Source: Deltaproteobacteria bacterium (lineage in GTDB: Bacteria; Myxococcota_A; UBA796; GCA-2862545). Taken from it: DNA of 51,356 bases. Shown here one piece after another: positions 10,369-40,321 of this stretch. The DNA lies in assembly GCA_007693595.1 (NCBI GenBank), contig REDI01000022.1, positions 1 to 51,356 on the forward strand, given 5' to 3'. Numbering within the stretch: position 1 is the stretch's first letter; every line of letters starts with the position of its first letter. The translations under genes and the position numbers were made by a program. Under the pieces are notes generated by a model. The model was not told the origin of the DNA. It did no database searches and worked only from the letters and a program-made list of their open reading frames with translations.

Positions 10369-11085
10369 CTAAGGACCGACGAGCATCGCGAGGTTGTGAT
10401 GATCCGCCTCGGTCAAGGCGCTCTCGCTCCCCGGCTCGACGCGGGGGAGAGGCAGCGAGTCTGCGCCCTCGACCACGTCGGGCTCAAACAAGAAGCGCTG
10501 GAGGTCGGGATGTTCGGGCACGATGCCGTGACGCGCCCGAATGGCCGCCGCCAGCCGCCAACGAACGACGGCGTCGAGGGCGACACCATATGGCGCGAGA
10601 TCATCCGCCGTGAGCCGCTCCCCGGCCAGGACCTTGCGGAGCTGGGGCTCGAAGCTGAGCAGGTCCACGCTCTGGCCAATCCTGAACCGATGGCGCGCCG
10701 CCCCCTCGAAATATTGCCGCGCCCGCACGCACGGGGCGGGGGCCGTGGCGCCCTCGGGGCAGATCGCCTGGACGTGCGCGCGCATTCGATCGAGCTGAGC
10801 GGCCGTCACCTCGCGCTCCTCAGGGTGCCCTACCTCGGGATCGAAGTCGAGCTCCGCAGGATCCTCCGTACCGTACGCCACCTTCAGCCACCACTGCATA
10901 CAGCCCTGGGTGCGCGCAGCGGTCGGGGAGGGATCATCCGCCCATCGCGCGGCGCAGACCTCGGCGTTCGGCGGCTCTTCTTGCACGGTCACCTCCCCTC
11001 CGAAGGACAGTCGCTCCTGTAGCAGCTCCAAGGGGTTGCACCCCATCAGCACCGTCGCCAGCGCCAGTTCCCGCCATCCGCTCAG
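10369..11085 (-). CDS. Putative lipoprotein with probable CTG start
   Basis: About 238 aa, function not recognised. A start at GTG 11052 would give an N-terminus of only MLMGC, too short for a signal peptide. Extending upstream in frame gives LSGWRELALATVLMGC, a plausible lipoprotein signal with lipobox LMGC. The only start-like codon there is CTG at 11085, which overlaps the stop of the preceding hydrolase gene as CTGA. The rest is helical and soluble, with four further Cys. It follows the peptidoglycan hydrolase directly, so a role at the cell envelope, possibly as partner or inhibitor of that enzyme, is a reasonable guess. Confidence 0.65.
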   Translation of the reverse strand: MSGWRELALATVLMGCNPLELLQERLSFGGEVTVQEEPPNAEVCAARWADDPSPTAARTQGCMQWWLKVAYGTEDPAELDFDPEVGHPEEREVTAAQLDRMRAHVQAICPEGATAPAPCVRARQYFEGAARHRFRIGQSVDLLSFEPQLRKVLAGERLTADDLAPYGVALDAVVRWRLAAAIRARHGIVPEHPDLQRFLFEPDVVEGADSLPLPRVEPGSESALTEADHHNLAMLVGP

Positions 11086-12890
11086 CGCACACCACCGACC
11101 GCGGTGCCGTGGTGAACCCGACGGTCCGTAGCATCGACGAGCTGCTGATCGGGGCTACCACCCGGCTCGTAGTCACTATCGTTGAAGCGGCCGAGGAAGG
11201 TGAGCTGCTGATCCCCCTCGTCGTAGGCCGTGGCCTGCACCCGATCGCCCCGGTTGCCCTCGACCAGCTCGAGGGTCCCGGTGCGCGCATCGTAGTCGCT
11301 GACGATAGCGACATGGCTGAAGTTCTGCCGGAACAGGACGATGTCGCCCGGACGGGGACCGAAGGCCTCGATGGCTTCCTTACGGCGGTCGCCCGAGAGC
11401 CTACGTAGATCGGTGGTCTGGTGCGGCTGCCACCAGTTGCCAGCTTGGCCGCCGATATACTTGCCCTGGGTGAAGAAGATATGCAGGCGGTAGCCCGACC
11501 AGAACACCAGGTTGCGGAGCATCTCGGTGCGAATGCCCGCCTTCTCGAACTGGAAGCCCACGAACATGCCACACCAGGCGTGCCGATCGGCTGGGTTAGC
11601 GAAGTTGGCCCGCATGTATTCGTCGACTAGCGGTCCCCGGTTGCTGCCGTTGGTCTCCCAGGTGCCGCCCCCGTGGATCGCTACGCCACGCAGGTACTCA
11701 TTCCGAGCAGACTTGGCCGCCAGCGCCCCGCGCTCCCCTGCGAGCCCCTCCCCGCGATCCGCGCGGCCTTCGTGGGACTGCTCCTCTTGGAGCTGATCTT
11801 GGACGTGCTCGAGGTCCTCGATGAGATCGTCGATCCGGCGCGCCGTGCCCGAGTTGAGCGCCGCGCGGGTCTGCGGCCCGACCCGGCCGTCGATACGAAG
11901 GCCGTTGGCGACCTGGAACTCGACGATCGCCAGTCGGGTCTGGTCGTTGTAGAAGCCCGTGATCGCGAGGCCCGCGCCGTAGTGGTTGAGCGCGTGCTGA
12001 AGCGCCTCGACCTCGGGGCCCTGGGAGCGGTGGGCGAGCAGGTCTGTGCCCATGTCCCAGGGGGGGCCCGCAGCGCGAAGCAGCTGCGGCGCGGGGCCTC
12101 CGGGGGGCTCCACCACCGGGGCCTCGCTCGCGACCGGAGCCTCTACGGCGACGGGGGCCTCGGCGGCGGCCTGGGGCTCAGGGATGACCTCGGTCCGCGC
12201 GGGAACGGGGGAGGCGGCCGAGGAAAGCAGGCGGCCTCGGGTCTCGGCGCCGACGACGCCATCGACACTCAAACCATTGCCGATCTGAAAGGCCCGGACC
12301 GCCGCGTGGGTCTGCGGACCGAAGACGCCATCGACCGTGATCGAGGCCCCGTGGTGCACCAGCGCCTCTTGCAAGGCCCGGACGTGGGCTCCCCGGCTGC
12401 CTGAGCGGAGCAAACCCTGACCCAGATCCCAGGTCGGGCTCTCGGCTGCCTCGGAGGGCTCTTCGCGTTCTGGCGCAGCGCGCGCCGCCGAGGGCCGGCT
12501 CAGCGCTTGCTTGGTCTGCGGGCCGACCAGCCCGTCGACCCGAAGCCCCCGCGCCGCCTGAAACTCACGGACTGCGCGCTCCGTGGCGGGGCCGAAGAGC
12601 CCATCGACCGCGAGCCGAGCCCCGGTCTGGTTGAGCGCCTGCTGGAGCGCCTCGACCGCCGGGCCCGAGCTACGACGCCCGAGCAGCTGATCCCCGAAGT
12701 CAGGGGAGGCGCTGACCCCCAGAGCATCGAGCATGGGGGTCTCGCTCTCGACGGGCTGCCGCCCGACCGACGCAGCGAGCTCTTCATTGGATGGTTGAGG
12801 AGCGGAGCGCTCCGTGCGTGGGGCGGTCCGCTCCGCCTCGGCGGTGGACGTACTGGTGGAAGAGCCTCCGAAGAACCGACGAAGAAACAT
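11082..12890 (-). CDS. Peptidoglycan hydrolase, three PG-binding modules plus CHAP-like domain
   Basis: 602 aa. Three PG_binding_1-type modules follow one another (coding about 12700-12500, 12430-12220 and 12060-11850), each with a core like VDGLFGPATERAVREFQ and VDGxVGPQT. The C-terminal domain is of CHAP/NlpC type: AWCGMFVGFQFEKAG (nucleophile Cys, codon near 11571), FSHVAIVSDYD (His) and LVEGN. It should cleave amide bonds in peptidoglycan. The start is ATG 12890, with GGAGG six bases upstream; a longer upstream frame is rejected. The N-terminus MFLRRFFGG with a Ser/Thr-rich stretch is not a classical signal peptide, so the export route is unclear. It is coupled to the lipoprotein gene downstream. 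Confidence 0.9.
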   Translation of the reverse strand: MFLRRFFGGSSTSTSTAEAERTAPRTERSAPQPSNEELAASVGRQPVESETPMLDALGVSASPDFGDQLLGRRSSGPAVEALQQALNQTGARLAVDGLFGPATERAVREFQAARGLRVDGLVGPQTKQALSRPSAARAAPEREEPSEAAESPTWDLGQGLLRSGSRGAHVRALQEALVHHGASITVDGVFGPQTHAAVRAFQIGNGLSVDGVVGAETRGRLLSSAASPVPARTEVIPEPQAAAEAPVAVEAPVASEAPVVEPPGGPAPQLLRAAGPPWDMGTDLLAHRSQGPEVEALQHALNHYGAGLAITGFYNDQTRLAIVEFQVANGLRIDGRVGPQTRAALNSGTARRIDDLIEDLEHVQDQLQEEQSHEGRADRGEGLAGERGALAAKSARNEYLRGVAIHGGGTWETNGSNRGPLVDEYMRANFANPADRHAWCGMFVGFQFEKAGIRTEMLRNLVFWSGYRLHIFFTQGKYIGGQAGNWWQPHQTTDLRRLSGDRRKEAIEAFGPRPGDIVLFRQNFSHVAIVSDYDARTGTLELVEGNRGDRVQATAYDEGDQQLTFLGRFNDSDYEPGGSPDQQLVDATDRRVHHGTAVGGVR

Positions 12891-13008
12891 CACGAGCCTC
12901 CAAAAAACCGACGCCGCGAGGAGGTGCGACGAAGACGACCCAAAAGGGATGACCACAGTGTAGAGCCCCCCAGCGCGCCTGTCTACTGAAAGCAGGACGG
13001 CAGAGCGA

Positions 13009-16000
13009 TCAGAGCTCCCCGGTCGCCACCAACAGGTCCACCGCTGCGAGCCACAGGGCAGTCTGCTCGTTCAGCCGCGTCAGCTCCGCGCTGCGTAGCC
13101 CGAGCTCCGCCTGCTCGACCTCCAGGAAGTTCGCCGTCTCCGCTTCGAAGCTCCGCCGGGCCAGATCCAGGCTGTCCTCGGCCAACGCCACCTCCTCGTG
13201 GACCGCCTCGACGGCAGCGCGGGCCCGGCCGTAGGCCTCCCAAGCAGTGCGCACTTCCTCGTCGACGTCCAGGCGTACCTTCTCGTTCTGCCAGCGGGCC
13301 TGACGCTCTTGACTGGCGGCAGCTCGAATCGCCGCCAGACGTGCGCCTCCATCCCAGAGGTTCCAGCGCGCGGTCAGCCCCGCGATCCAGAACGTCGTCT
13401 GGCCTGCGAAGCCCGGCGTCTGGTTCGCGACCCCCGTCCAGTTCGCGTCGACCTCGGGAAGCCAGGCGAGCCCCTCGGCGCGGACTTGCAGACCCGCGAC
13501 ATCTTCGCGAAGCTCAGACGCGCGCACATCGGGCCGCAGCCGGCGCGCTCGCTCCAGCGCGTCGTCGAGGGTCTGAGGCACCGGAAAGTCGAAGTCCTGC
13601 TCCAACTCGACGCTCGACGGCAGACCCGTCAACTTGGTGAAGGACTCCTGAGCCACGACGAGCTGCTCCTGCGCCCGCCGCAGATCCCGGTCAGCCTGCG
13701 CGACGCTCAGCCGACCCTGGAGCTCCGCTCGGCGCGTCGCGAGCCCCGCGCCGACCTGACGCTCCGCGAGATCGAGCTGACTCTTGGCGGTCTCGACCGC
13801 TTTCTCGGAGAGCACCACGGCCTGACGAGCCGAGAGCAGCCCGAAGTAAGCCCGCGCGATCCCGGCCCGGACCTGCTGGCTCGTGCGACGCTCATCGAGC
13901 GTGGCGGCGTCCGCCTGCTTGTAGGCGCCTATGAGCAGAGGGACCGCCATGCCGTTGAACAAGGGCTGGCTGACAGCCAACGCCCCATCGAAGTTCGATC
14001 CTCGCTGAACGATCGTAGGCTCAGGCGACTCGATGTCGATGGGGAAGCCGTCGAGAAACTCTCCGAAGTCGAGCTTCACGTCGCCATAGCTGTAGTAGTT
14101 GTAGTTTCCTTGAAGCGACACCCTGGGCTGGATCAAGGCCCAGGCTTGGAGGCGCTGGTTCCTTGCCTGAAAGGTCGACTCGCTGACGATGCGTAGATCT
14201 GGGTTGGCTTGCTGCGCCGCCAGCCAGGCCTCCTCGAGGGTGATGGCGTGCGCGGACGGCGGCAAGAGAAGCCATGCTCCGAGCGAGAGGGCGGCGATCT
14301 TGGCCGCGAGGGAGGCGAGCTCCTTCCGGCGCTGCTCGGTCGGCAGGAGCCGCCGGAAGTCGTCGTAGATGCTGTAGAGGGTCGGCACCATGACCAGGGT
14401 GAGCAAGGTCGCGAAGGCCAGACCGAAGATCACCGCCACCGCCATGGGACCCCAGAAGGCCGAAGACTGGCTCCCCAGGACCAGCCCGAGGGTCGGCAGA
14501 GGCACCACGCCCCCAACCCACCACAGATCGAGATCCAAGGCGATGCCCAAAGCCATCGGCACGAGGCCCAGGATGGTGGTGGCCGCCGTCAACATGACGG
14601 GACGAAAACGGGTCATGCCCGCCCTCACCAGGCTGTCGTGCACCGAGTGCCCTTCGCGCTGGAGCTGTCGCACATAGTCGAGCAAGACGATGGCATTGTT
14701 CACCACGATCCCCGCGAGGCTGATCACCCCGATGCCCGTCATCATCACGCCGAAAGGCGTGCCCGTAATCAGGAGTCCCCAAAGCACGCCGATGAGCGAG
14801 AGCACGACGGTAAGCAGGATGATCATGGGCTGTACGAAGTCGTTGAACTGCGCGACGAGCACGAGAAGGATGAGCACGACGGCCACCCCCATGGCCCATG
14901 CCAAGAAGGAGGCCGCCTCCTCTTGTTCGGTGGAGGATCCCCCGAGCTCTCCGCTCATACCCGTAGGGAAGTCGAAGGCCTCGATGGCCCGGACGACCTC
15001 TGCCTGCTTCTGCGAGACCGCATACCCTTCGAGCACATCGCCGGTAATGGTCACCGTGAGGGCCTGGTCGAGGTGAGCGACCGAGCCGGTTCCGCCCGCG
15101 AGCTCGTACCGCGCCACCGTCGAGAGCGGGATGGCGTACATGTCGGGATCCCGCTCCAGTCGCCCTGGAAGCTTGAGCGAGAGAACCTGCTGCACGTTCT
15201 GAGTGAACTCGGGCGCGAGCCGCACGACGACGTCATACTCCTTGTCACCGTCGCGAATGGCCGTAGCCACCGCTCCGTTGAAGGCGGTTCGCACCGTGTT
15301 TCCGATGAGCCCGGTGCTCACGCCGACCTGCTTGGCAGCGGCCCGATCCACTCGGAGCGCCAGCTCGGGCCGATTGACGCGGTAGTTGTCTCGAAGTCCG
15401 GTTACGCCTTCGATTTTGCTGAGCTCTCGACGGAGGCGCTGCGCGACCTCACCGACCTCGTTGAAGTCACGGCCCCGGACCTTGACCTCGATGTCATCTC
15501 CGACCGGCGGCCCCATCTCTTGGCGCTCCACCGTGATCTCGGCGCCGGGGATCACCCGGACAGCTTCACGGATCTCGAGGATCGTCTCGTCGGAGCTCCG
15601 CGATCGGGGAACCTCACCCCTCCGTGCAGAGGCCGGGTGGGAGAGGAAGTCCACCGTGATGCGAGCGGAGTGCGGAGAGGAAGACGAGCCGACCAGCGCT
15701 CCCCCGTTGCCCGATGAGACGCCGACCTCACTGACGTAGACATCGACATCGGCGACCCGATCGAGCATGCCCTCGATGCGACGCACGATCCGATCGGTCG
15801 TGTCGAGATCCGTGCCATCGGCGGCGCGGACGTTGATCGTCGCCCGGTCCGGCTCCGTCGAGGGGAAGAACTCGACCCCATGATTGAAGACGGCGTAGAT
15901 GCCGAAGGTGAGGACCAGCGAGAGGAGCCCCGTCGCGAGCGAGAGGTAACGCCAGCGGATCGACAGCGAGAGGAGCTCCTTGTACCAAGACATGACGCGG

Positions 16001-17550
16001 CCGGGCTGCTCGAAGCGCTCGCGATCGCGCTGCTCCATGCGCTCCACCGCTCGTTCGTAGGTCAGCTCCTTCTCGGCGTGATCTCGCTTGGGCGGTCGCA
16101 TGAGGCGGCTGGTGAAGACGGGAAGGATCACGAGCGCCACGGCCAGCGAGGCGAGAAGGACGATGATGACCGTCTTGGGTAGGTAGCCCATGAACTGTCC
16201 CATGATGCCGCCCCAGAAGACCATCGGGAAGAAGGCCGCCACCGTCGTCGCGGTCGAAGCCGCCACCGGCATGGCCATCTCGCGTGTGCCATCCACCGCC
16301 GCGCGCCATCGACCCTTCCCGAGCTCCAGGTGCCGGTAGATGTTCTCGACCACCACGATCGCGTTGTCGACCAGCATTCCGAGCGCTAGGATCAGACTGA
16401 ATAGGACCACCATATTTAGCGTGAAACCTAGCGCCTGGAGCACCGAGAAGCTCACGAACATCGACAGCGGAATGGCTAGGGCCACGAAGAGGCTGTTGCG
16501 GAAGCCCATGAAGAAGAGGATGACCCCGACCACCAAGAGCAGCGCGGTGAAGATGTTGTTCTGGAGCTCCTTGACCATGTCGTAGATGTTGCGAGACTGA
16601 TCCGCGAGGATCCGGTACTCTGCGTTCTCGGGCCAGGACTGGGCCTGGACGGCCACGACCTCCTTGACCGCGTCCGCCACCCCGATGATGTTCGCCCCCG
16701 TTCGCTTCTTGACCCGAAGCGAGACGGCAGGCTCCCCATTCATGCGAGCATAGGTCGTTCTATCGGCGATCCCGTCGCGAACTCTACCCACATCCTTGAT
16801 CCGCACAGGGTAGCCCCCCTTGATGATCAGGGGCACGCGCTCGATGTCTTCGGACTCGACCAGCTCGGCGGGGGTTCGGACCAGCAGGTTCGCGTCGCCG
16901 ACGAGCACATCGCCACCGGGGATGTTCACGTTCTCGCCATGGAGCGCGCTCACCACGTCGTCGAGGGAGACCCCGTAGTGATCCAGCCTGCCCGGATCGA
17001 GCAAGACCTGGAACTCTCGCTCGGTACCCCCTGCGATCTCGGCCTCGAGCACCCCTGGGATGCGCGCGACCTCGTCCTCGAGATCCTCGACCAGCCGCTT
17101 GAGCACCGTCTCGTCGTAGGGTCCCGCGACCGTGACGATAAGGACCGGGATGTCGGTGAACGAGAGCTCACGGACGCGCGACTCTTCCACGTCATCGGGC
17201 AGCTTGGGGCGGGAGCGATTGACCCGATCGCGTACCTGCTGGATCGCGTCTTCGATGACCACATCGGGCTCAAACTCGAGAAAGACGATGCTCACCCCTT
17301 CGGCCGACGTGCTGCGCATGAGCTTGAGCCCCTTGAGCCCCGCCAGCTCGTTCTCGAGGGGGACGGTGACCAGAGACTCGACGTCGCGCGGCGAGACCCC
17401 CACATAGGGGGTGGTCACCATCACGAAGGGCACCTTGACGTCGGGGGTCGACTCGCGCGGCAGCGTGATGTAGGACACCAACCCAAAGAGGAAGATCCCC
17501 AAGGCCATCAAGAAGACCGGCGCGCCATTTCGTACGATGAGGCCGAACAT
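13009..17550 (-). CDS. RND efflux pump fused to TolC-like outer membrane channel
   Basis: 1513 aa, one uninterrupted frame. Residues 1 to about 1065 are a complete RND (AcrB/HAE-type) permease: N-terminal helix, PRESTPDVKVPFV, TM4 motif GMLVDNAIVVVEN near 390-402, TM10 motif VVNNAIVLLDYV near 946 and the last helix ending MVPTLYSIYDDFRR. The AcrB proton-relay lysine of TM10 is not present at that motif. A second hydrophobic segment AAKIAALSLGAWLLLPPSAHA ends in a signal-peptidase-like AHA|I at 1102/1103. Residues 1103-1513 are a normal-length TolC/OEP protein with long coiled-coil repeats (LDLAERQVGAGLATRRAEL; WNLWDGGARLAAI). The gene begins directly after the TAG of the MFP gene. Processing into two proteins is likely but inferred. 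Confidence 0.93.
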   Translation of the reverse strand: MFGLIVRNGAPVFLMALGIFLFGLVSYITLPRESTPDVKVPFVMVTTPYVGVSPRDVESLVTVPLENELAGLKGLKLMRSTSAEGVSIVFLEFEPDVVIEDAIQQVRDRVNRSRPKLPDDVEESRVRELSFTDIPVLIVTVAGPYDETVLKRLVEDLEDEVARIPGVLEAEIAGGTEREFQVLLDPGRLDHYGVSLDDVVSALHGENVNIPGGDVLVGDANLLVRTPAELVESEDIERVPLIIKGGYPVRIKDVGRVRDGIADRTTYARMNGEPAVSLRVKKRTGANIIGVADAVKEVVAVQAQSWPENAEYRILADQSRNIYDMVKELQNNIFTALLLVVGVILFFMGFRNSLFVALAIPLSMFVSFSVLQALGFTLNMVVLFSLILALGMLVDNAIVVVENIYRHLELGKGRWRAAVDGTREMAMPVAASTATTVAAFFPMVFWGGIMGQFMGYLPKTVIIVLLASLAVALVILPVFTSRLMRPPKRDHAEKELTYERAVERMEQRDRERFEQPGRVMSWYKELLSLSIRWRYLSLATGLLSLVLTFGIYAVFNHGVEFFPSTEPDRATINVRAADGTDLDTTDRIVRRIEGMLDRVADVDVYVSEVGVSSGNGGALVGSSSSPHSARITVDFLSHPASARRGEVPRSRSSDETILEIREAVRVIPGAEITVERQEMGPPVGDDIEVKVRGRDFNEVGEVAQRLRRELSKIEGVTGLRDNYRVNRPELALRVDRAAAKQVGVSTGLIGNTVRTAFNGAVATAIRDGDKEYDVVVRLAPEFTQNVQQVLSLKLPGRLERDPDMYAIPLSTVARYELAGGTGSVAHLDQALTVTITGDVLEGYAVSQKQAEVVRAIEAFDFPTGMSGELGGSSTEQEEAASFLAWAMGVAVVLILLVLVAQFNDFVQPMIILLTVVLSLIGVLWGLLITGTPFGVMMTGIGVISLAGIVVNNAIVLLDYVRQLQREGHSVHDSLVRAGMTRFRPVMLTAATTILGLVPMALGIALDLDLWWVGGVVPLPTLGLVLGSQSSAFWGPMAVAVIFGLAFATLLTLVMVPTLYSIYDDFRRLLPTEQRRKELASLAAKIAALSLGAWLLLPPSAHAITLEEAWLAAQQANPDLRIVSESTFQARNQRLQAWALIQPRVSLQGNYNYYSYGDVKLDFGEFLDGFPIDIESPEPTIVQRGSNFDGALAVSQPLFNGMAVPLLIGAYKQADAATLDERRTSQQVRAGIARAYFGLLSARQAVVLSEKAVETAKSQLDLAERQVGAGLATRRAELQGRLSVAQADRDLRRAQEQLVVAQESFTKLTGLPSSVELEQDFDFPVPQTLDDALERARRLRPDVRASELREDVAGLQVRAEGLAWLPEVDANWTGVANQTPGFAGQTTFWIAGLTARWNLWDGGARLAAIRAAASQERQARWQNEKVRLDVDEEVRTAWEAYGRARAAVEAVHEEVALAEDSLDLARRSFEAETANFLEVEQAELGLRSAELTRLNEQTALWLAAVDLLVATGEL

Positions 17551-18639
17551 CTAACTGCCCCCTAGAGCTTCGTACTGTACGCGCCCCCGATCGCAGCACA
17601 CGCCTCGACGGCTGACGAGGACCGAGTCCCCGTCGATGAGCTCGCGGTGCCCGACCATAATGACGGCATCCCCCGGGGACAGTCCTCCTTCGACAACCAC
17701 CTGGTTGCGGAGCACCCGACCCAGTTCGACCGGGCGCCACTTGGCGCTGCCATCCACTTCGACGAAGACGCCATAGCCCCCAGGGGTCGAGACGATCCAA
17801 TCACTCGGAACCACGATGTGCTCGCCGAGCATGCGGCTGAGCTCGACGCGCGCCACCATGCCCGGAAGGAGCTTGCGATCGGGGTTGGGGACCTCGACCT
17901 CGACCTGGAAGCTGCGCGTGCGCCCGTCGCCCACGGGGCTGATCTGCCGGATCCGCCCTTCGAGCTGCTGCCCGATGGCGCTGGCGGTCACGACGACCGG
18001 GAGGTCTTCTTCGAGGGCCACGACCTCGCGGTCGGAGACCGCGAGCATGACCCGCACGGGGTCGAGCTGGACGACGCGGAGCAGCCCGTTCCCCGGAGGA
18101 GCGATCTCGCCCTCCTCGATGTTGACCGCGCTGACCACCCCGTCGAAGGGAGCGACGATGGAGGCGCGGCTGAGCTGGACCCGCGCCTGAGCGAGCCCGG
18201 CCTCGGTGACCTTGGCCTGGGTCTCGGCTTGCTGGAGCTGACTGGCCGAGACCGCGTCGCCCATGCGGCGCAGGCGCGCAAACTCCGCGGCAGCCAGCTC
18301 GCTCTGCGCTTTGGCCTGGGCGTAGCCGGCGGCGTGGAGCTGCCGGTCGACGGTCATGAGGGTCTGGCCCTTCCGAACCTCAGCCCCCGTTCGCACCGAG
18401 ACCGCTTCAACGAAGCCCCCTTGCGAACTGGCCAGGTTGGCGTCGCGCAGACCCTTGATCTCGCCGGTGAGACCCATCCGCAACTCGGCGGGTACATGCT
18501 GTACCTCCGCCACCTCGACCCGAGCCCCGTCGCTGGGCGCGCTGCGCTCCGTGGGCTCAGCCGAGCTCGCGGCCGTGCCGTCGACGCTGCAGGCCGAGAG
18601 GAGGGCCAAATAACAAAGGGTACTCAATCGAAGTGTCAT
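17551..18639 (-). CDS. RND periplasmic adaptor (MFP/HlyD family) lipoprotein
   Basis: 362 aa membrane fusion protein that should link the fused RND-TolC pump. The N-terminus MTLRLSTLCYLALLSAC has lipobox LSAC, so the mature protein is probably anchored by lipid to the inner membrane. The lipoyl half-motifs GGFVEAVSVRTGAEVRKGQ and IVAPFDGVVSAVNIEEGE flank a short helical hairpin; a beta-barrel domain (LPVVVTASAIGQQLEGRI, then VGDGRTRSFQVEVEV) follows. The ATG at 18639 overlaps the TetR stop (ATGA); a longer frame reaching into the TetR gene is rejected. It is the second gene of a TetR-MFP-RND/OMF operon. Confidence 0.93.
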   Translation of the reverse strand: MTLRLSTLCYLALLSACSVDGTAASSAEPTERSAPSDGARVEVAEVQHVPAELRMGLTGEIKGLRDANLASSQGGFVEAVSVRTGAEVRKGQTLMTVDRQLHAAGYAQAKAQSELAAAEFARLRRMGDAVSASQLQQAETQAKVTEAGLAQARVQLSRASIVAPFDGVVSAVNIEEGEIAPPGNGLLRVVQLDPVRVMLAVSDREVVALEEDLPVVVTASAIGQQLEGRIRQISPVGDGRTRSFQVEVEVPNPDRKLLPGMVARVELSRMLGEHIVVPSDWIVSTPGGYGVFVEVDGSAKWRPVELGRVLRNQVVVEGGLSPGDAVIMVGHRELIDGDSVLVSRRGVCCDRGRVQYEALGGS

Positions 18640-19214
18640 GGTTCGGTGATCCCGGTCAGATATTGGCGGACGACCGTCTTGTGAAAGTCTTGAGGGATGG
18701 GCGCGCCGTGGAAGGCCGCGAGCCCCCATGCGCGCACGATCCCAAGGAAGCTGATGACCGCCAAGGGCACATCGGTGTCGACCCGCAGTTCGCCCCGGTC
18801 GACCGCCTGGGCAAAGACGCCGCCTAGGTGCCGAACGAAGGTCGCGTCGATGCTCATCATGTCGATGGCAGGTTGCCCGTGATCGACCTGATGCAGGCAG
18901 GTCATGAGGAAGCGAACCGTGTCAGGATTATCGGCCGCAAACTCGACATTCTGGAGCAGGAGACGTTCGAGGGTCTGAGCGAGTGGGCCGGGTGAGCTCA
19001 CCGCGGCCGCGACCATCTGGTCGAGCTCCTTCAGCAGCTCGTTGGCGAGCGTGAGGAAGAGGCCCTCTTTGCTGCCGAAGTAGTAGTACAGGGTCGGCTT
19101 GGTGACGCCGGCGGCCTCGACGAGCTCGCGCACCGAGACCGATCCATAGCCTCGAAGACCGAAGAGACGGGTTCCATGGAGTCGGAGGAGGGCTTGCGCG
19201 TCGGGCTGATTCAT
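18636..19214 (-). CDS. TetR/AcrR-family repressor of the efflux operon
   Basis: 192 aa. The N-terminal HTH is clear (SVRELVEAAGVTKPTLYYYFGSKEGLF spans about 26-52, including the TetR hallmark TLYYYFGSKE). The variable C-terminal ligand domain is helical. It is the first gene of the efflux operon and overlaps the MFP start. A palindrome TACCGAACGGTA lies six bases upstream of its ATG, so autorepression of the whole operon, relieved by a pump substrate, is likely. Confidence 0.93.
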   Translation of the reverse strand: MNQPDAQALLRLHGTRLFGLRGYGSVSVRELVEAAGVTKPTLYYYFGSKEGLFLTLANELLKELDQMVAAAVSSPGPLAQTLERLLLQNVEFAADNPDTVRFLMTCLHQVDHGQPAIDMMSIDATFVRHLGGVFAQAVDRGELRVDTDVPLAVISFLGIVRAWGLAAFHGAPIPQDFHKTVVRQYLTGITEP

Positions 19215-19345: not shown

Positions 19346-21670
19346 TTACTGCTCGATAAGCTGCCCTGCACTGGCCGGATCGGGGGCGACGTCGGCGCCG
19401 GGCGTATAGAAGGCGAAGGGTAAGAAGGCGACGATCACCAGCGCGACCGCCATGATGAGCATGGGCAGCCAGATGTGCTCATGTCGCGCCCAGAAACCTT
19501 CGGTGTCGTCATCTTCGACGTGGCTCGGCTCCCCGATCACCTGTCGCGCGAGCAGATGGTTGAGGGCGACCGGCGGGGTGAGGTAGCCCAACTCGAAGGC
19601 CACCAGCACCATCATCCAGAAGTGAACCGCCGAGATCCCCGCGTCGTAGGCCAGGCTCGCCACCGAGACGCTGACGAGGACGACCGCCCCCAGCGCGTCC
19701 ATGGTCATGCCTACGAGCACCATCACGATCACCAGCACCGCCATGGTGAGGTACGGGCCCCCAAGCGAGGCGGGGAAGAGCTCCATCAGCTCCGTGCGCT
19801 CGACCACACCCCCGAGGCAGATCGAGGCCGTCATGAGCATGAGCAGCGCCCCGATGTGCTCGCTCGACTCGGCCGTTGCGCTGACGAGTGGCTTCCAGAG
19901 GCGCTCCTGGGGCTCGGGCACCTGCACCCCACCGAGCTGGGCCGGCGCGTAGACTCGATCGTAGATCACCACCGCGAGCAAGACCGCAGGCAGCACGTAC
20001 ATTGCGGTGTGCTCGGTCACCCCGGTTCCAAGGATGAAGGCGTAAAACAGAATGACCGCCGCCCCGATCCCGACGAAGGGGAGCAGCCGGAGCAGGGCTC
20101 CACCGATCTCGGGGCCCGCCTTGCCCAGCTCAGGCATGCGGAAGGGCTGATCGTTCCGCCAGAGAAAACCCAGTAAGGCCAGCACTGCGCTGAGCGCAAA
20201 GACGTACAGACCCGAGTTGAACAGCTCGGCGGTCGTGACCTCGTTGTTGAGGGTCGCGATGAGCACCACCACCAGGCACGGCGCCAGGACCACCCCGAGG
20301 CTCCCCGACATCGCGGTCGCCGCCAGAGAGATGCGCGACGTGGCGCCAGCATCTCGGAGCTGGGTGAAGATCACGGCGCCCGCCGCAAGCACGAAGATTC
20401 CCGAGGCGCCGGAATAGGCGGTGGGGACCGCGGCGAGCACCACCACCAGCCACGCGAGCAAGACCGGGGGCAAGCCCAGGGGGCGCAAGACCCCGAAGGT
20501 GAGCCGCGCGAAACGGGTCAGACTAAAGAGCATGCCCGCCCAGATGTAGAGGCCGATCCCCAGGTAGACGCTGGGCACCTGCAGGAACTTATGAAGGTAG
20601 ATCGCCTGACCTGAGAAGTGCTGCTCGATCAGCACGAAGTAGATCCCACTTCCGATGGCCATGTACGCGAAGAGGGGCACCACCATGAAGCCACGGGCTA
20701 CGCTCCCCTTACCCGAGAACTTCTCGCCTGGACGCGCGAGCTGCACGAGGTTGACGATCGCGAGGATCGCAAATCCCACAGCCCAGATCAGAGGAAGCTC
20801 CGGGTTCTCACGCTCGGCCTCTGAGGCCATCTGCACCTGATAGTCCGCGATATTCGACGCGAACAAGAAGAGAAAACTAAGGAGCTGCGCGCCCTGAGAG
20901 ATCTGATGTTCGAGGAGCGTCCGAGGCTCCCGGAGGGCGATGTGCTTGCGGTACACCGTGGTCGAGATCGACCCGAGCATGACGAAGAGCACCAGGACGT
21001 GCTTCCAGAAGGGGAAGCGGGCGAGATCGCCGATGAAGACCTCGACGGTGCGGTAGGCGCGGGTGGTCGGGGTCAAGCGGCTAACGATCGTGTTGTAGGA
21101 GGACCAGCGTCGGTCGCAGGTGTCGCGGAAGGCACGGAGCCCGGAGCACTCCGCGGCCGTCGGCGCCGCGACCGCGGCGGCGGCATCGGAGGGCTCCGCG
21201 AAGGGGTCGTCCCCGCCGAAGGGGTCGTCCTCTGCCGCGCCATCGCCGGGCTCTGCGAAGGGGTCGTCCCCACCGAAGGGGTCCGCCTCGCCGCCCTCCG
21301 CACCGGGCTCTGCGAAGGGGTCGTCCCCACCGAAGGGGTCCGCCTCGCCGCCCCCCTCACCGGGCTCTGCGAAGGGGTCGTCCCCACCGAAGGGATCCTC
21401 ACCGCCTTGCGGCGGAGCTGCTGGGGTCTCGGCGTCGGGGCAGGCTTGGATCCTGCGGTCGAGGTCCTCGAGGTCGCAGGTGGGCTCCCGCGGATCGCGC
21501 CGCAGTTCGTTGGCGTAGCCCGGCCAGAACCTCTCGCCCAAGCGCACGAGCTGCGTATCGACGTTGGGTGAGATCCCAAGTCCGAGCGCGACCAGGAGCG
21601 CGAAGAAGACGAGAACGGCCGCCACCCCGGTCAGGGCGCGGAGGGGACCGGGGGTCTGGGGGGCGTTCAA
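19346..21670 (-). CDS. TRAP transporter fused small/large permease (DctQ-DctM type) with DPF repeats
   Basis: 774 aa integral membrane subunit of a TRAP transporter, driving secondary uptake of an organic solute. After one helix (about 13-33) comes an exported loop containing four copies of a 19-residue repeat built on DPFGGDDPFAEP (residues 92-160). Four small-subunit-like helices follow, and then a DctM-type large permease with many helices (AYSGASGIFVLAAGAV, LVGMTMDALGAVVLVSVSV, ELGYLTPPVALNHLL). The start is TTG 21670, with AAGGAG nine bases upstream. It is the third gene of a T-P-QM operon, the arrangement known from TPR-protein-associated TRAP transporters of Treponema. The long repeat insert is unusual for the family. 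The substrate is unknown. Confidence 0.85.
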   Translation of the reverse strand: MNAPQTPGPLRALTGVAAVLVFFALLVALGLGISPNVDTQLVRLGERFWPGYANELRRDPREPTCDLEDLDRRIQACPDAETPAAPPQGGEDPFGGDDPFAEPGEGGGEADPFGGDDPFAEPGAEGGEADPFGGDDPFAEPGDGAAEDDPFGGDDPFAEPSDAAAAVAAPTAAECSGLRAFRDTCDRRWSSYNTIVSRLTPTTRAYRTVEVFIGDLARFPFWKHVLVLFVMLGSISTTVYRKHIALREPRTLLEHQISQGAQLLSFLFLFASNIADYQVQMASEAERENPELPLIWAVGFAILAIVNLVQLARPGEKFSGKGSVARGFMVVPLFAYMAIGSGIYFVLIEQHFSGQAIYLHKFLQVPSVYLGIGLYIWAGMLFSLTRFARLTFGVLRPLGLPPVLLAWLVVVLAAVPTAYSGASGIFVLAAGAVIFTQLRDAGATSRISLAATAMSGSLGVVLAPCLVVVLIATLNNEVTTAELFNSGLYVFALSAVLALLGFLWRNDQPFRMPELGKAGPEIGGALLRLLPFVGIGAAVILFYAFILGTGVTEHTAMYVLPAVLLAVVIYDRVYAPAQLGGVQVPEPQERLWKPLVSATAESSEHIGALLMLMTASICLGGVVERTELMELFPASLGGPYLTMAVLVIVMVLVGMTMDALGAVVLVSVSVASLAYDAGISAVHFWMMVLVAFELGYLTPPVALNHLLARQVIGEPSHVEDDDTEGFWARHEHIWLPMLIMAVALVIVAFLPFAFYTPGADVAPDPASAGQLIEQ
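21191..21397 (-). repeat. 57-bp coding tandem repeat (DPFGGDDPFAEP)x4
   Basis: Four near-identical 57-bp units inside the TRAP permease gene, each encoding DPFGGDDPFAEP plus a variable Gly/Ala/Glu linker. The units are acidic (Asp/Glu) with regular Phe-Pro pairs. The high identity of neighbouring units at the DNA level points to recent expansion. The related string DPFGEDPFGEDPF occurs in the T-component lipoprotein of the same operon. Confidence 0.9.
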
Positions 21671-21676
21671 CGGGGA

Positions 21677-22684
21677 CTACTCCTTCTGCTCCGCGCACTC
21701 CGACCGCGCGCCGTCTCGGGCACAGCGCAAGCGGCGCAGCACCGAGAGCATGGCCCCATCATACGCCTTGTGCTCATCGCGCAAGGCGATCCGGCTCTGC
21801 AAGAAGAGGTCATCGAAGCCTGGACGGGACTCCTTGGGGATCCGGATCCAATACTTTTCATCGATACCGTTCTGATCTTTGAGCACGGCCTTGCGGGCCC
21901 GATCGAACTGCCCGGCGAACCACTCGCGGCTCTTGGCGCCGAACTCGTCGGGGAAGCGCTCGTGGCGCACGAGCACTTGGATGGTGGCCATGGCCAGCGG
22001 CAGGTCGACCACGCCCCCGCCGTTGTCCATGCCCCGCCACAGCTCGAAGGGACGGTAGCCGATCGCCGACATGTAGCAGGCGTCGACGTTGCCGTTGTTG
22101 AACATGGGCCCGAAGGTTCCGAGGTCCGCAGGCACCATGATCGCGCCGATACGGTTGACCATCACCGGGGCGGCGCGGTCGTAATCCATGGTCGCGATCC
22201 GCTTGCCCGCCAGCTCTTCCACGGTGTCGATCTCGCGATCACGGACGTACAAAAAAACCAGCCCCGCTGGCAACACGCCGATGGTCTCGTGGGCGCCGGA
22301 GCGCAGCCTGCGTGCAGCGCTGGGGTAGCGCACGAAGCTGTCGACGAGCTGCTTGAGGATGCCGTACTCCGTGATGGCCCCGATCGCCTCGATCGTTGAG
22401 GAGAACCGATTGAACCGCTGAAGACGGACCCCGGTGGCGACCACCCCATCGCACTTGCCGGCGTCGTAGTCCTTGGCGGCCGTCTCTTCGTCGGTGTAGG
22501 TCCGGATGTCGATCTCGGCCCCCCAGCCTGAAGCCTGAAGCTTGAACTCTTCCATGATCCGAGAGAACTCTCCGGTTCTTCCGCCCGGATCGTAGGCGCA
22601 GATGGACCGGGTTTCCGCGAGGGCGGCGCCGGGGAGGAGCGCGCCGAGGGCGGTCGCAGCGAGCGCGAGGAGCAGGGTCTTCAT
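21677..22684 (-). CDS. TRAP-type solute-binding protein, AdeT-like
   Basis: 335 aa periplasmic protein; signal peptide 1-23 ends in AALA|E. The mature part has the DctP-like pattern of the AdeT family of putative solute-binding proteins: ICAYDPGGRTGEFSRIMEEF, YTDEETAAKDYDAGKCDGVV, VRDREIDTVEELAGKRIATM, and MFNNGNVDACYMSAIGYRPF. AdeT proteins of Acinetobacter were once linked to aminoglycoside efflux, but their sequence is that of a binding protein. The ATG overlaps the stop of the T-component gene (ATGA), and six bases separate it from the permease gene. It should deliver the unknown substrate to the permease. Confidence 0.9.
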   Translation of the reverse strand: MKTLLLALAATALGALLPGAALAETRSICAYDPGGRTGEFSRIMEEFKLQASGWGAEIDIRTYTDEETAAKDYDAGKCDGVVATGVRLQRFNRFSSTIEAIGAITEYGILKQLVDSFVRYPSAARRLRSGAHETIGVLPAGLVFLYVRDREIDTVEELAGKRIATMDYDRAAPVMVNRIGAIMVPADLGTFGPMFNNGNVDACYMSAIGYRPFELWRGMDNGGGVVDLPLAMATIQVLVRHERFPDEFGAKSREWFAGQFDRARKAVLKDQNGIDEKYWIRIPKESRPGFDDLFLQSRIALRDEHKAYDGAMLSVLRRLRCARDGARSECAEQKE

Positions 22685-34746: not shown

Positions 34747-35979
34747 TCAGTCCACCCCGCGAACGCCCTCGAGCTCAGCGGTCGCGGCGACGACCGCCGC
34801 TTCGGCGTAGACCACCGACACCTTCGCCTCGATCGAGACCCTCCGGGCATCGAGCCACGACGTCACGCCGTCGATCCCGTTGCGGTAGCGCTCGTCGGTG
34901 CGACGGAAGGCCTCTTCGGCCGCGTTCAGGCTACCGCGCCTCGCGAGGAGCGCGAGCTCGGAGGCCTTGAGCCGAGCCTCCGCCGCCAGCAGGGTGGCGG
35001 CCAGGTCGCGCTCCTGCCCATCGAGCTCGGCGGCTGCGAGGCGTTGCTCGGCCTTGGCCATCGCGAGATCCCCAGGGCCGGTGGTGGCGATGGTGAGCGG
35101 GACATCCAGGGTGATGTTGGCGGACCAGCCAAGACCCGTGCCCCGATCGGCCACGATGTATTCCGCGACGGTGCCGTCGGCGTTGATGGAGGGCAGGTAG
35201 GCGAACCGAGCCTGATCCCCACTCGCCTTGGCTGCCCCCAGAGCCTCCTCAGCCGCCGCGAGGGCGGGGTGCCGATCAGGCCCTCGCTCCGGCGGGCCCG
35301 CCTGCGGGGCCTCCAGCTCGCATCGCCCCGAGAGCTCGGCATCGACCAGGGCTTGCAGACGGGCGCACGCGGCGGTGGCCTCGCCGGTCGCCGCCTCGGC
35401 CTGCGCCTCGAACTCGAGCGCGTCCGCCCGAGCTCTCGCCAGATCGACGGCGGGCCGCACCTCGGCCTCGACCAAGCGCCGGATCGCGTCTTCCGCGCGG
35501 TGGAGCTCCTGGACCGCCTCGCGCAGCAGGGCCGCCGCTCGAGCCGCGCTCCAGGCCTCGGTGTAGGCCACCGCCGCGTCGCGCCGGGCCTGGGCCTTGG
35601 TCCACTGGACGATCGCCTCTCGACCGCGGGCGGTGCGACGCGCCGAGGTCGCCGCGGCCCAGGTCGAGGGATCGACGACACTCCACGCGCCTTGAGCGCC
35701 CAGGCCGACCTGCCAGGGGATAGGTCGCTCGAAGCCAAAGGGGGTGAAGCCGGCACCGACGCCGAGCTGGGTGAACAACGAGACGGCGGGCAAGGCGCGC
35801 CCCCGCCAGACCGAGGCCTCGCCGCGAGCCTGGTCGGCCGAGGCTACGGCGAGCTCGACCGCGACCGCTCGACGCACCGCCCGATCCTGGGTCGCGGCGA
35901 GCGAGCCGGTATAGACCGCGCCCTCCCGCTGGATGGGCACATCGGAGGCCAGCGCCATCCCGAGCAGGAGCGCGATCAT
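34747..35979 (-). CDS. TolC-family outer membrane efflux protein
   Basis: 410 aa. The signal peptide is short (MIALLLGMALASD). Two halves with long amphipathic helices (LHRAEDAIRRLVEAEVRPAV; LLAAEARLKASELALL) and beta segments match the OEP fold, which forms trimeric channels in the outer membrane. The ATG at 35979 overlaps the stop of the RND gene (ATGA). It is the third gene of a conventional MFP-RND-OMF operon and ends four bases from the convergent AAA ATPase gene. Confidence 0.9.
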   Translation of the reverse strand: MIALLLGMALASDVPIQREGAVYTGSLAATQDRAVRRAVAVELAVASADQARGEASVWRGRALPAVSLFTQLGVGAGFTPFGFERPIPWQVGLGAQGAWSVVDPSTWAAATSARRTARGREAIVQWTKAQARRDAAVAYTEAWSAARAAALLREAVQELHRAEDAIRRLVEAEVRPAVDLARARADALEFEAQAEAATGEATAACARLQALVDAELSGRCELEAPQAGPPERGPDRHPALAAAEEALGAAKASGDQARFAYLPSINADGTVAEYIVADRGTGLGWSANITLDVPLTIATTGPGDLAMAKAEQRLAAAELDGQERDLAATLLAAEARLKASELALLARRGSLNAAEEAFRRTDERYRNGIDGVTSWLDARRVSIEAKVSVVYAEAAVVAATAELEGVRGVD

Positions 35980-38900
35980 GCGCGCCTCGCGATCCACCAC
36001 ACCAGGCGGAATACGGCGGGCACGACGAAGAGCGTGAGGGCGGTCGATAGGGCCAGGCCCCCGAGCACGATGGCCCCGACACCCCGGTACAGCTCCGAGC
36101 CCGAGCCCGGGAAGAGCACCAGCGGAAGCAGCCCAGCGAGCGAGGTCATCGCACTCATCGCGATCGGACGGGCTCGACGCTCGACCGCATCGGCCAAGGC
36201 GTCGGTCACGAGTGCCCCTTCGCGCAGCCGCGACAAGGCGACATCGACGACCAGGATCGCGTTATTGACCACCACCCCGATGAGGATGATGAAGCCCATC
36301 GCCGTGAGCAGATCGAAGGCCTGGGGCGCGAGGAGCAGGTCGACGAGCCGCAGCCCGATCACGCCCCCCGCCGCCGCCAGCGGCACCGTCACCAAGACGA
36401 CGATCGGTGCCAGAAAGTCTTCGTACAGCGCGGACAGCAGCAAGAAGCTGATCAGCATGGCGAGCATGAGCACCTGACCGAGCCGGGTCTGCGCCTCGAC
36501 CAGCTTGTCGGCCGCACCTGCATACGAGATCCGCACGCCCGGCGACAGCCCGGCGTCGACCATCGGCGCGACGATGCGATCTTGCAAGCGCTCGAGGGTG
36601 GCTTCGAGGGGAAGGTCGTCGGGGGGACTGAGCTGAAGGGTGATGCCCTGGCGCCGCTCCAGCCTTCGGATCTTGGTCGGTCCTACCGTCTCGACCACGT
36701 CCGCCAGCGAGGACAGCGGCACCACCCCACCCAAGGGCGTCGCGACGGACGCGTTCTCGAGGGCCTCCTTGCTCGTGGGCGCGACCCCCACCGGCCGGAT
36801 CGTCACATCGAGCTTTCGACGACCCGGCCGGGCCAGCTCTCCGACGATCCGACCATCGACCAGCGCGTCGACGACAAGGCCGATCTCTTCGCCGGTGAGG
36901 CCCAAGCGCAGCGCGTCCTCGCGTCGCGGAAAGACCTGCAACTCCGGCCCACCGAGATCGAGAGAGGGGAGCGGCTGGACCTGAGAGCCGGGGATGACCT
37001 CAGCGATCTGCCCCATCATCTCGCGACCGACCGAGAGCAGCTCCACGAGATCCGGGCCGGTGATGTCGATGTCGATGGCGCGGCTCGATCCCAGGCCTCG
37101 GGCGAACAGCCCCGCCTGGTTGGCGACCCCGAAGAGCCCCGGGTGCCGCCGTTGCTCCTGCCGGTAGCGCGCGACCAGCTCGCCGATACGGGAGCCGTCG
37201 ACGGCGCCGCCGCCCATGAAGGCCTGCTCCGGACGCGCGACGAAGAAGCTGCGCTCGATGCGGGGCACGCCGTCGACCTCGTCGAGGCGGTGCCGGTCGA
37301 TGCTCTCTTGGAAGGCGGCACCCACGCGCTTCATCTCGTCCATGGAGTAGCCCGGTGGCGGGATCATGACGCCGAAGAGGAAGTTCCGGTTCCCTTCGGG
37401 CAGGTATTCCATGGAGGGGAGCAAGGCCCAGCCAACCCCGGCGAGGCCCGCAGGCACGAGCAGCGAGATCAGCAGAGCCACAGGGACGCTCTCGACGATC
37501 CGGCGGACCCCCCAGACGACCGCGGCGCGCAGCCGGCCTCCAAGCCGCCCCACCCCCCCGGTGGCCTGGGACCCCTGCCGGAGTAGGCGTGCCGAAAAGC
37601 TGGGGATGACGAGCACCGAGACCCCCAGCGAGAGCACGACCGCGAAGCTGATCGCCACCGCCACGTCGCGCAAGAGCTCTCCGACCTCGTCCTGCCAGGT
37701 GATGATCGGGATGAAGACCGCCGCCGTCGTGACCGTCGAAGCCAGGATCGCTCCCCAGACCTCGCGCACACCGATCAGAGCTGCCTCGGCCGCCGAGCTC
37801 GCGCGGGCGCGCCACGAGTCGATGTTCTCGAGCACGACGATGGCGTTGTCGACCACCATCCCGACCGCGAAGGCGATCCCCGCCAGGCTCACGACGTTTA
37901 CGGAGCGGCCGAGCAGCGCCATCCCCAGCGCCGTGCCGATGACGCACACCGGGATCGAGACGCTCACCACCCCCGCGGCGGGGATGGAGCGCAGGAAGAG
38001 CCAGAGTACGAGGGCCGCCAGGACTGCACCGATCAGCAAGTTCTGTCGAACGAGGGCCAGGGCCCCGTAGATGTAGTCGGTCTGATCGTTGACGATCCGC
38101 AGCTCCAGCCCCTCGGCGTCGAGGAGGTCCCGCTGCACCTCGGCCACCCCCTCCCGGATCATCTCGGTGGTCTCGAGCACGTTGGAGCCCGCCTCGCGAC
38201 GAAAGAGGACGGCGAGGGCCTCACGGTCGTTTCCGTAGACGTAGGCACGCTGGATCCGAAGACCGACCGAGACCTTGGCGACGTCGCCCAGCCGCACCGC
38301 CCCGGCGGATCCCTCCGCGGGCCGAACCACGATGTCTTCGAGATCCTCGACGTTGGGCGGCCGGGCCATGGTGCGCACGATGTAGCGACGCTTGCCCATG
38401 TCGATCTCGCCGCCGGTCAGATCGCGCAGCTCGGCCCTCACCGCAGCCGCCACCTGGGTGAGGGGCAAGCCGCGAGCGGCGAGCTGATCGGGCTCGAACG
38501 AGACGACGACCTCGGAGTCTCGCCCGCCGAAGAGGTCGATGCTCGCGACCCCTGGGATCCGCTCGAGCGGGGGAAGGACCTCTTCTTCGACCCAGGTTCG
38601 GTAGTGCCCGACGTCGTCGCCGGACGGGCTCTGCAGCAGCACCACCGCGAGCGGCGGACCCGCGGCGTTGCCGGTCGAGACGATGGGCTCGTCGGAGTTC
38701 TCGGGGTAAGAAGGGACCTGGGTGAGCAGGTTCGTGATGCGAGAGAGGGCCTCGTCGAGGTTAGTCCCCACCTTCATCTCAAGGGTGATCTGCCCCTGAT
38801 CCGAGGTCGCCTCGCTCGTCATGCGGGTGAGACCCTGCAAGGTCTTGAGGGCTTCTTCTTGGGGCTCGAGGAGCTCCTGCTCGACCTCGGCGGGCGCAGC

Positions 38901-39110
38901 ACCCGGCCAGCGGGTCGTGACCGTCAGCGTCGGGATCTCGATGTCGGGCGTGAGCTGAATCGGGAGCGCGAAGAGCGAGAACAGGCCAAAGAGGACGATC
39001 AGGATCACCCCGACGAGCACACCCACCGGACGCCGAATGGCTAAGGCGAGCAACCCGGAGGCGCTCTCGGTCGGCGCCTCCGGGCGCGCCGGCTCCTGGG
39101 GCTCGCTCAC
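35976..39110 (-). CDS. RND-family efflux permease
   Basis: 1044 aa, normal RND length. The N-terminal helix is followed by LPIQLTPDIEIPTLTV. TM4 carries GMVVDNAIVVLEN near 415 and TM10 carries GVVVNNAILVVDV near 947. The Lys of the AcrB relay is not at the TM10 motif, as in the fused pump. The start is GTG 39110, overlapping the MFP stop (GTGA) with GGAGGAGG just upstream; a longer frame runs through the MFP gene and is rejected. The substrate is unknown; metal-type HME signatures were not seen, so a drug/lipid-type (HAE-like) pump is favoured. Confidence 0.95.
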   Translation of the reverse strand: MSEPQEPARPEAPTESASGLLALAIRRPVGVLVGVILIVLFGLFSLFALPIQLTPDIEIPTLTVTTRWPGAAPAEVEQELLEPQEEALKTLQGLTRMTSEATSDQGQITLEMKVGTNLDEALSRITNLLTQVPSYPENSDEPIVSTGNAAGPPLAVVLLQSPSGDDVGHYRTWVEEEVLPPLERIPGVASIDLFGGRDSEVVVSFEPDQLAARGLPLTQVAAAVRAELRDLTGGEIDMGKRRYIVRTMARPPNVEDLEDIVVRPAEGSAGAVRLGDVAKVSVGLRIQRAYVYGNDREALAVLFRREAGSNVLETTEMIREGVAEVQRDLLDAEGLELRIVNDQTDYIYGALALVRQNLLIGAVLAALVLWLFLRSIPAAGVVSVSIPVCVIGTALGMALLGRSVNVVSLAGIAFAVGMVVDNAIVVLENIDSWRARASSAAEAALIGVREVWGAILASTVTTAAVFIPIITWQDEVGELLRDVAVAISFAVVLSLGVSVLVIPSFSARLLRQGSQATGGVGRLGGRLRAAVVWGVRRIVESVPVALLISLLVPAGLAGVGWALLPSMEYLPEGNRNFLFGVMIPPPGYSMDEMKRVGAAFQESIDRHRLDEVDGVPRIERSFFVARPEQAFMGGGAVDGSRIGELVARYRQEQRRHPGLFGVANQAGLFARGLGSSRAIDIDITGPDLVELLSVGREMMGQIAEVIPGSQVQPLPSLDLGGPELQVFPRREDALRLGLTGEEIGLVVDALVDGRIVGELARPGRRKLDVTIRPVGVAPTSKEALENASVATPLGGVVPLSSLADVVETVGPTKIRRLERRQGITLQLSPPDDLPLEATLERLQDRIVAPMVDAGLSPGVRISYAGAADKLVEAQTRLGQVLMLAMLISFLLLSALYEDFLAPIVVLVTVPLAAAGGVIGLRLVDLLLAPQAFDLLTAMGFIILIGVVVNNAILVVDVALSRLREGALVTDALADAVERRARPIAMSAMTSLAGLLPLVLFPGSGSELYRGVGAIVLGGLALSTALTLFVVPAVFRLVWWIARRA

Positions 39111-40171
39111 CCCTCCTCCCGGCGGCGGTCGATCTCGACGGCTTGGCCGGTGCGGAGGCGCTCGTTGCCTCGCGTGACGACCACATCCCCTGGGGCGAGG
39201 GGGCGCACGAGGGCGTCGTCGCCCGCGGTGGCGACGACGTCGACCTGGACCGACTGCGCCTTGCCGTCCACGACCTTGACGACGCGCGTGCCCGCCGCGC
39301 CGAGCACCAGGGCATCGCGCGGGATGCGTGCCGCCTCCTCGTCGCGTCGGACCACATCGAAGTCGACGGTGACCGACAGCCCTGGCACGATCCACTCGGG
39401 GACCGGCTCGAGAGGCTCGAGTCGGACCACCGCCGTGCGGCTCGTGCGCTCGAGGCTGGAGGCGATGCCCACCACCTCGGCGTCGGCGCGCTCGGACCCG
39501 AAGCGGAGTCGCGCGCGATCACCCTTGGAGAGCTGCCGCGCCAAGGCGCGCGGGGCATCGACCCGCAGATCGAGGGCGCCGAGGTTCACCAGCTCAAGGA
39601 CGGGCTGTCCGGGCTCTACCCAGTCCCCAACACTCGCCAGGAGCGCGACGACCTCACCGTCGAAGGGGGCGCGGAGACGGTGCCGATCGAGCAGAACGCG
39701 GGCCTCGCGCGCGGCGGCCTGGAGCCGACCCACCCGCGCCCGCAGGGACTCGGCCTCAGTGCGCGCAAGGTCGAGCTCCGATGCGGACAGCACCCCCTCG
39801 GCGACCCTGGAGAGGCGCTCCACCTCCCGCTCGGCCCGCCCGGCGGAGACCTCGGCCTCTCGGGCCTCGGAGGTCGCGACGGCGAGTCGGGCAGCAGCGG
39901 GCTGTGGATCGACGGCGAGCAGCAGATCCCCACGCTGCACGGATGCCCCCTCACGCAGGGCGAGCTCGGTGATCGGACCGCTCGCCGCAGCCGCGAGCAC
40001 CGAGCGCTCGAAGGCCCGCACCTCGGCCGGCAAGGACCACTCATCGTCGAGGACCCCTTCGCGCGCCTCCGCGACCTCGACGAGGGCGGGCGAGGGACCG
40101 GAAGAGCCTCGCTCCTCGTCGACCCAGAGGAGGCCACAGCCCATGCACAGAGTCGGCAGCAGGAAGCGCAT
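39107..40171 (-). CDS. RND periplasmic adaptor (MFP/HlyD family)
   Basis: 354 aa. The N-terminus MRFLLPTLCMGCGLL contains a possible lipobox (CMGC). The lipoyl half-motifs ASGPITELALREGASVQRGD and LRAPFDGEVVALLASVGDWV flank a helical hairpin; barrel and membrane-proximal domains follow (PVPEWIVPGLSVTVDFD). It is the first gene of the second RND operon, followed with overlap by the permease gene. No good ribosome binding site precedes the ATG. Confidence 0.92.
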   Translation of the reverse strand: MRFLLPTLCMGCGLLWVDEERGSSGPSPALVEVAEAREGVLDDEWSLPAEVRAFERSVLAAAASGPITELALREGASVQRGDLLLAVDPQPAAARLAVATSEAREAEVSAGRAEREVERLSRVAEGVLSASELDLARTEAESLRARVGRLQAAAREARVLLDRHRLRAPFDGEVVALLASVGDWVEPGQPVLELVNLGALDLRVDAPRALARQLSKGDRARLRFGSERADAEVVGIASSLERTSRTAVVRLEPLEPVPEWIVPGLSVTVDFDVVRRDEEAARIPRDALVLGAAGTRVVKVVDGKAQSVQVDVVATAGDDALVRPLAPGDVVVTRGNERLRTGQAVEIDRRREEG

Positions 40172-40321
40172 CGCGCCGACCTAACCCTCCCCCTCACGAC
40201 GTCGACCTTAGGCGACGGGTCGTGACGCCGCGAGGTCAGGGCCGTTGAACTCGCTACCACGAGACAGGCTTAGACTTGGCGATCGGGTCGAGCCGGTGGC
40301 AGATAGAGACTGGAGGTAGAC

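Follow-up and report, generated by a model that had tools for sequence, protein, structure and literature searches.

One gene in the 51,356-nucleotide stretch of DNA analysed here (the window) encodes both an RND efflux permease and a predicted TolC-type outer-membrane channel, with a predicted signal peptide between the two. Ordinarily, such a pump and its exit channel are two distinct proteins. We consider it highly probable (roughly 0.87) that Sec would export the channel co-translationally and that signal peptidase I would release it, yielding pump and channel in a 1:1 ratio from a two-gene pump made of adaptor and fusion.

The gene (13009..17550, minus strand) was read as a single ATG-to-stop frame of 1513 codons with no internal stop, specifying a precursor of 1513 aa and ~165.6 kDa. 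Pfam profiles identified a full-length ACR_tran domain (PF00873) in the N-terminal part (residues 11-1002, 693 bits, E 6e-208) and two stretches of OEP (PF02321) in the C-terminal part (186 bits; the best ends at residue 1511, E 7e-55). The region between ACR_tran and OEP reads VPTLYSIYDDFRRLLPTEQRRKELASLAAKIAALSLGAWLLLPPSAHA/ITLEEAW (here and below, the slash marks the predicted cut), with A-H-A ending at residue 1102. The permease part spans residues 1-1057 (14380..17550, minus strand). It is followed on the same strand by a variable linker predicted to be cytoplasmic (residues 1058-1080, YSIYDDFRRLLPTEQRRKELAS; 14311..14379), the internal signal peptide with its predicted SPase I site AHA/I (residues 1081-1102, LAAKIAALSLGAWLLLPPSAHA; 14245..14310) and the predicted TolC/OEP outer-membrane channel (residues 1103-1513; 13012..14244), with a predicted mature mass of 45.4 kDa. 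An earlier note on this DNA had claimed a permease and a TolC-like protein in one frame, separated by AHA/I at residues 1102/1103; both the 1513-aa frame with its Pfam domains and the position of the motif (residues 1100-1103) bear this out.

Upstream of the fusion and in the same direction, the operon contains a TetR-family regulator at its head (18636..19214, minus strand) and a periplasmic adaptor (MFP; 17551..18639, minus strand) with a probable start at MTLRLSTLCYLALLSAC and the lipobox LSAC. The adaptor belongs to HlyD_D23/RND_mfp and scored 214 bits against TIGR01730 (cut-off 94.9), indicating that a cognate adaptor adjoins the permease. At 17545-17560, the adaptor stop codon TAG abuts the fusion ATG in the same frame, so that the adaptor is one stop codon away from a three-part chain. 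The window also contains the normal three-gene RND operon (34750-40180, minus strand) that the earlier note had pointed to as an internal contrast, made of MFP (39110-40180), RND (35979-39518) and a separate OEP (34750-36261; all open-frame bounds). Other neighbouring genes encode a protein with three PG_binding_1 domains and a CHAP domain, possibly a cell-wall hydrolase (11082-12956), and a DctM-type TRAP transporter subunit (19346-21670) with an in-frame 57-bp tandem repeat of 3.7 copies (21191-21398), adjoined by an AdeT1_2 solute-binding protein gene (21677-22684).

The permease-channel fusion is real and is not an assembly artefact. HMM scans recovered the same fused frame in 25 other genomes of the order (26 with the window's own) and in 2 of the class (L203, L204). 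A search of 57 related genomes gave full-length matches at 50-69% identity, each a single frame without stops; over the 14 fused proteins that were aligned along their whole length, identities ran from 49 to 69%. Distant fusions were found elsewhere in the phylum in a 284-genome sample, two of them (L177 and L178) on contigs of 8,047,206 and 5,847,748 bases, and Pfam confirmed both domains in representatives of several fused groups. Two ordinary genes that were joined erroneously during sequencing or assembly, or through a stop codon lost in a single strain, could be suspected given that the window's assembly consists of 97 contigs and that relatives with a single stop do exist (L035-L037, L181). 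The stop-free frame of the 27 further order and class genomes and of the distant fusions, with linkers of varied length, leaves this explanation virtually no chance. The conserved frame and the fusions on 8.05 and 5.85 Mb contigs therefore exclude a frameshift or lost stop in a metagenome-assembled genome. The case that the earlier note had named against its own reading, homologs always carrying a stop at the junction, is contradicted by the many stop-free homologs, which exist alongside the single-stop relatives L035-L037.

Curated cut-offs place the permease part in neither HAE-1 nor HME. Its scores were under every NCBIfam subfamily cut-off: 391/940, 446/1250 and 594/1250 bits (score/cut-off) for the HAE-1 models TIGR00915 and RND_permease_1/2, and 397 bits for the HME model TIGR00914 (cut-off 701). 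The TM4 motif GMLVDNAIVVVEN contains a single Asp, D395, and the pairs D395-N396 and N951-N952 are invariant in A1. In AcrB, we take the counterparts to be an Asp-Asp in the TM4 motif and a Lys-Asn at the position of N951-N952. Unlike the permease of AcrAB-TolC, the fusion permease therefore lacks the AcrB-type Asp-Asp and Lys residues of the proton-relay motif, in addition to scoring below the NCBIfam cut-offs.

The AlphaFold model of residues 1059-1513 had a mean pLDDT of 90.7, with values of 55-66 up to residue 1098 and of at least 90 from residue 1099. This jump in confidence coincides with the predicted cut and supports the cleavage reading. Both TolC repeats are retained in the predicted channel, together with the strands of the barrel and the long helices. 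Its best Foldseek match was E. coli TolC (E 6e-20, TM 0.70-0.75), and OprM, CusC and relatives were also matched; two OEP repeats and a modelled TolC fold would together make it an outer membrane factor. It could be argued, given that an unfused sister clade is missing its original OEP, that the C-terminal part does not act as a channel and instead assists the permease from the inner membrane or periplasm after export. We regard this as very improbable, because the predicted fold retains the repeats, strands and helices of a channel and the signal peptides of stand-alone relatives are normal.

The junction displays the features of a Sec/SPase I signal peptide: ahead of the mature domain come a charged n-region, a hydrophobic core and a small-x-small site. 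These features were scored by simple rules, scanning the whole linker. In group A, to which the window's protein belongs, all 26 proteins of the order have a small-x-small site after the hydrophobic core and next to the first channel helix, and the linker varies in sequence and length (31-59 aa by first placement; ~23 residues in the window's protein). The combination of charged n-region, core and small-x-small site recurs in five RND groups of the phylum and in most of the Bacteroidota fusions checked. An internal signal peptide is retained in nearly all of the 63 fused proteins, while the sequence of segment and linker drifts. An excess of n-region charge was found in only 45/63, and a few members, such as L191, have weak cleavage sites. 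Three B1 proteins unplaced by the script (L119, L122 and L128) show ADA, ARA and ARA by eye. An A-x-A motif lies within 15 aa after the junction core in 48 of the 63 fused proteins, compared with 12.3% of 750 RND TM cores. Shuffling the 18 residues after the core gave A-x-A in ~37/63 against 50 observed; since the junctions are Ala-rich, the motif alone is a modest signal. The stronger argument comes from stand-alone OEPs of the same clade (L244-L247), whose N-terminal signal peptides correspond to the internal ones in both position and kind, as illustrated by MSSLLLLLLSLPSAHA/ATLEEAW in L246 and LGAWLLLPPSAHA/ITLEEAW in the window. Judged from these alignments, the internal segment is homologous to the N-terminal signal peptides of stand-alone channels. 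A Peptidase_S26 (signal peptidase I) gene is present in the genome. Collectively, the kept signal features and this homology make the cut at 1102/1103, the 1:1 production and the two-gene pump proposed in the earlier note the best-supported reading.

The same junction was considered as a signal anchor, a 13th TM helix in an uncut chain that would link pump and channel permanently. The hydrophobic segment could serve as a valid TM start, and in group C 30-55 residues separate the site from the OEP profile, providing a longer possible tether. In the AlphaFold model of the window's protein, only ~9 residues (at most 3 nm) separate the end of the core (residue 1096) from the first channel helix (~1105). 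In assembled pumps, the periplasmic part of the RND protein measures 7 nm and makes no contact with TolC, the adaptor bridging ~6 nm (PMC4754349). An uncut tether is unlikely because a spacer of ~9 residues is too short for this distance. An unused cleavage motif would also not be expected to persist, whereas 48/63 junctions have A-x-A, compared with 12% of TM cores. We thus give the permanently linked chain, which the earlier note had offered as the more radical alternative, little credence on geometric grounds, and slightly less still to an uncut trimeric chain spanning the envelope in at least some long-spacer members such as those of group C.

Cleavage of a single precursor was also weighed against an alternative in which translation of most of the channel begins internally, a short way before the signal peptide, and the fused product is minor. 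A Met precedes the signal peptide in 17/63 fused proteins of the phylum and in the Bacteroidota protein L217 (KKKGNMKTVTTVIVLLL). However, the window has no ATG, GTG or TTG in the 25 codons before the core, many relatives likewise have no usable start, and a start with an SD-like 4-mer was found in only 10/63. No conserved internal start or SD-like sequence before the channel was detected among the 63 fused proteins. A single precursor is therefore likely, and internal initiation as the main source of the channel is quite unlikely.

RND permeases are proton-driven and have 12 TM helices and a cytoplasmic C-terminus. In the mechanism that we propose, Sec would insert the permease and the linker after its last helix would remain inside the cell. 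The internal signal peptide would then re-engage SecYEG, and the channel would cross co-translationally until signal peptidase I cuts after Ala1102. The released channel (411 aa, 45 kDa) would proceed to the outer membrane, and, barring trimming, the used signal peptide would remain attached to the C-terminus of the permease as a stub in the membrane (120 kDa for permease plus stub). Permease and channel would be made 1:1, a possible benefit that matches a 3:6:3 pump, beside the adjoining adaptor gene.

Fused permeases fell into several distant groups, namely A, C/C2, D, B1 and B2. On a FastTree phylogeny of 108 permeases, the fused state changes at least 7 times, 6 of these changes being forced by well-supported branches; several gains and losses are needed if this tree is followed. 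Within group A, an unfused clade (L166-L174) is nested among fused members, and holding the fused members as one clade was rejected (AU p 0.0006; LG+G4, quick tree). The group A channels form one clade (98), to which the channels found near L166-L174 are unrelated. Together, the nested unfused clade, the AU rejection and the single channel clade are most simply read as one fusion event at the root of A, with the channel later lost and replaced. L166-L174 have lost the original channel, and unrelated channels lie next door in L167, L169, L172 and L173; the permease can thus do without the fusion.

A plausible pre-fusion state is represented by L035-L037, in which permease and OEP are in frame and split by exactly TAG then ATG (TAG at L035:2764-2766, L036:4621-4623 and L037:2764-2766). 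Losing the TAG in such a layout would produce a fusion, and the fusion probably originated when two abutting genes lost the single stop codon that separated them. The channel of L035-L037 is sister to the window's channel clade and their permease is distant, which suggests, as far as the trees go, a partner exchange between permease and channel.

A similar architecture was found in Bacteroidota, where 80 genomes contained at least 35 CusA/CzcA (TIGR00914) matches with frames of 1437-1523 aa. All 23 long frames inspected matched the OEP profile (23/23, weakly in five, at <20 bits), and most had a signal-peptide-like junction. Pfam confirmed ACR_tran and OEP in L217, L228, L233 and L235. Fusions with a C-terminal OEP and an internal signal peptide (L207, L212, L217-L237) are apparently common in this family. 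They have the same part order as the window's protein, RND permease, internal signal peptide and OEP, but belong to the HME subfamily and to another phylum, represent an independent permease-channel pairing and in some cases contain an internal Met before the signal peptide. When the group A profile was run on 249 genomes from the Pseudomonas phylum, all of the matches listed stopped short of the channel part. The best 60 matches of a PDB sequence search covered the permease only, with no fused chain; the best matches in plasmid records were a permease, or a permease and TolC annotated as separate genes, and phage records gave no match to the fusion.

Export of a partner protein from the end of a membrane protein has a precedent in Bradyrhizobium FbcH, a cytochrome b-c1 polyprotein that is cut at an internal signal sequence, giving the exported partner 1:1. 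In both cases a polytopic inner-membrane protein comes first, then a cleavable internal signal peptide (a predicted one in the fusion) and last an exported partner, except that both FbcH products join one inner-membrane complex, whereas the second product here is predicted to reach the outer membrane. In dual Sec-Tat membrane proteins, too, an internal targeting segment lies late in the chain, behind TM helices inserted by Sec (PMC5449189), although theirs is a retained Tat-dependent TM rather than a cleaved Sec signal peptide. Like AcrAB-TolC and MexAB-OprM, the system comprises an RND permease (ACR_tran), an HlyD/RND_mfp adaptor and a TolC-fold channel, and a 3:6:3 assembly is expected (PMC4754349); it differs from them in that a single reading frame covers permease and channel, with a signal peptide inside it. 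Fusions involving outer-membrane pore proteins are described as rare (PMC4827864). The tripartite RND pump is already known, and ACR_tran and OEP in one chain are visible to Pfam. No published description of an RND-OMF fusion was found in the literature searched outside subscription journals, which is weak evidence of novelty, and the relevant passages of two reviews (PMC8277102, Chem Rev 2021; PMC4446572) do not mention one.

Gene counting during annotation would score fused operons as having no outer-membrane channel. That the fusion recurs in RND groups far apart and in two phyla points either to a genuine advantage or to a mutational path that is easily taken, by loss of a stop between abutting genes. 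Passages of PMC4446572 describe few channels shared among many pumps; because one precursor fixes both ratio and partner, such sharing would be given up here. The fusions may thus provide a natural setting in which to study the influence of channel supply and specificity on efflux, and to find out if assembly is faster when pump and channel are synthesised together.
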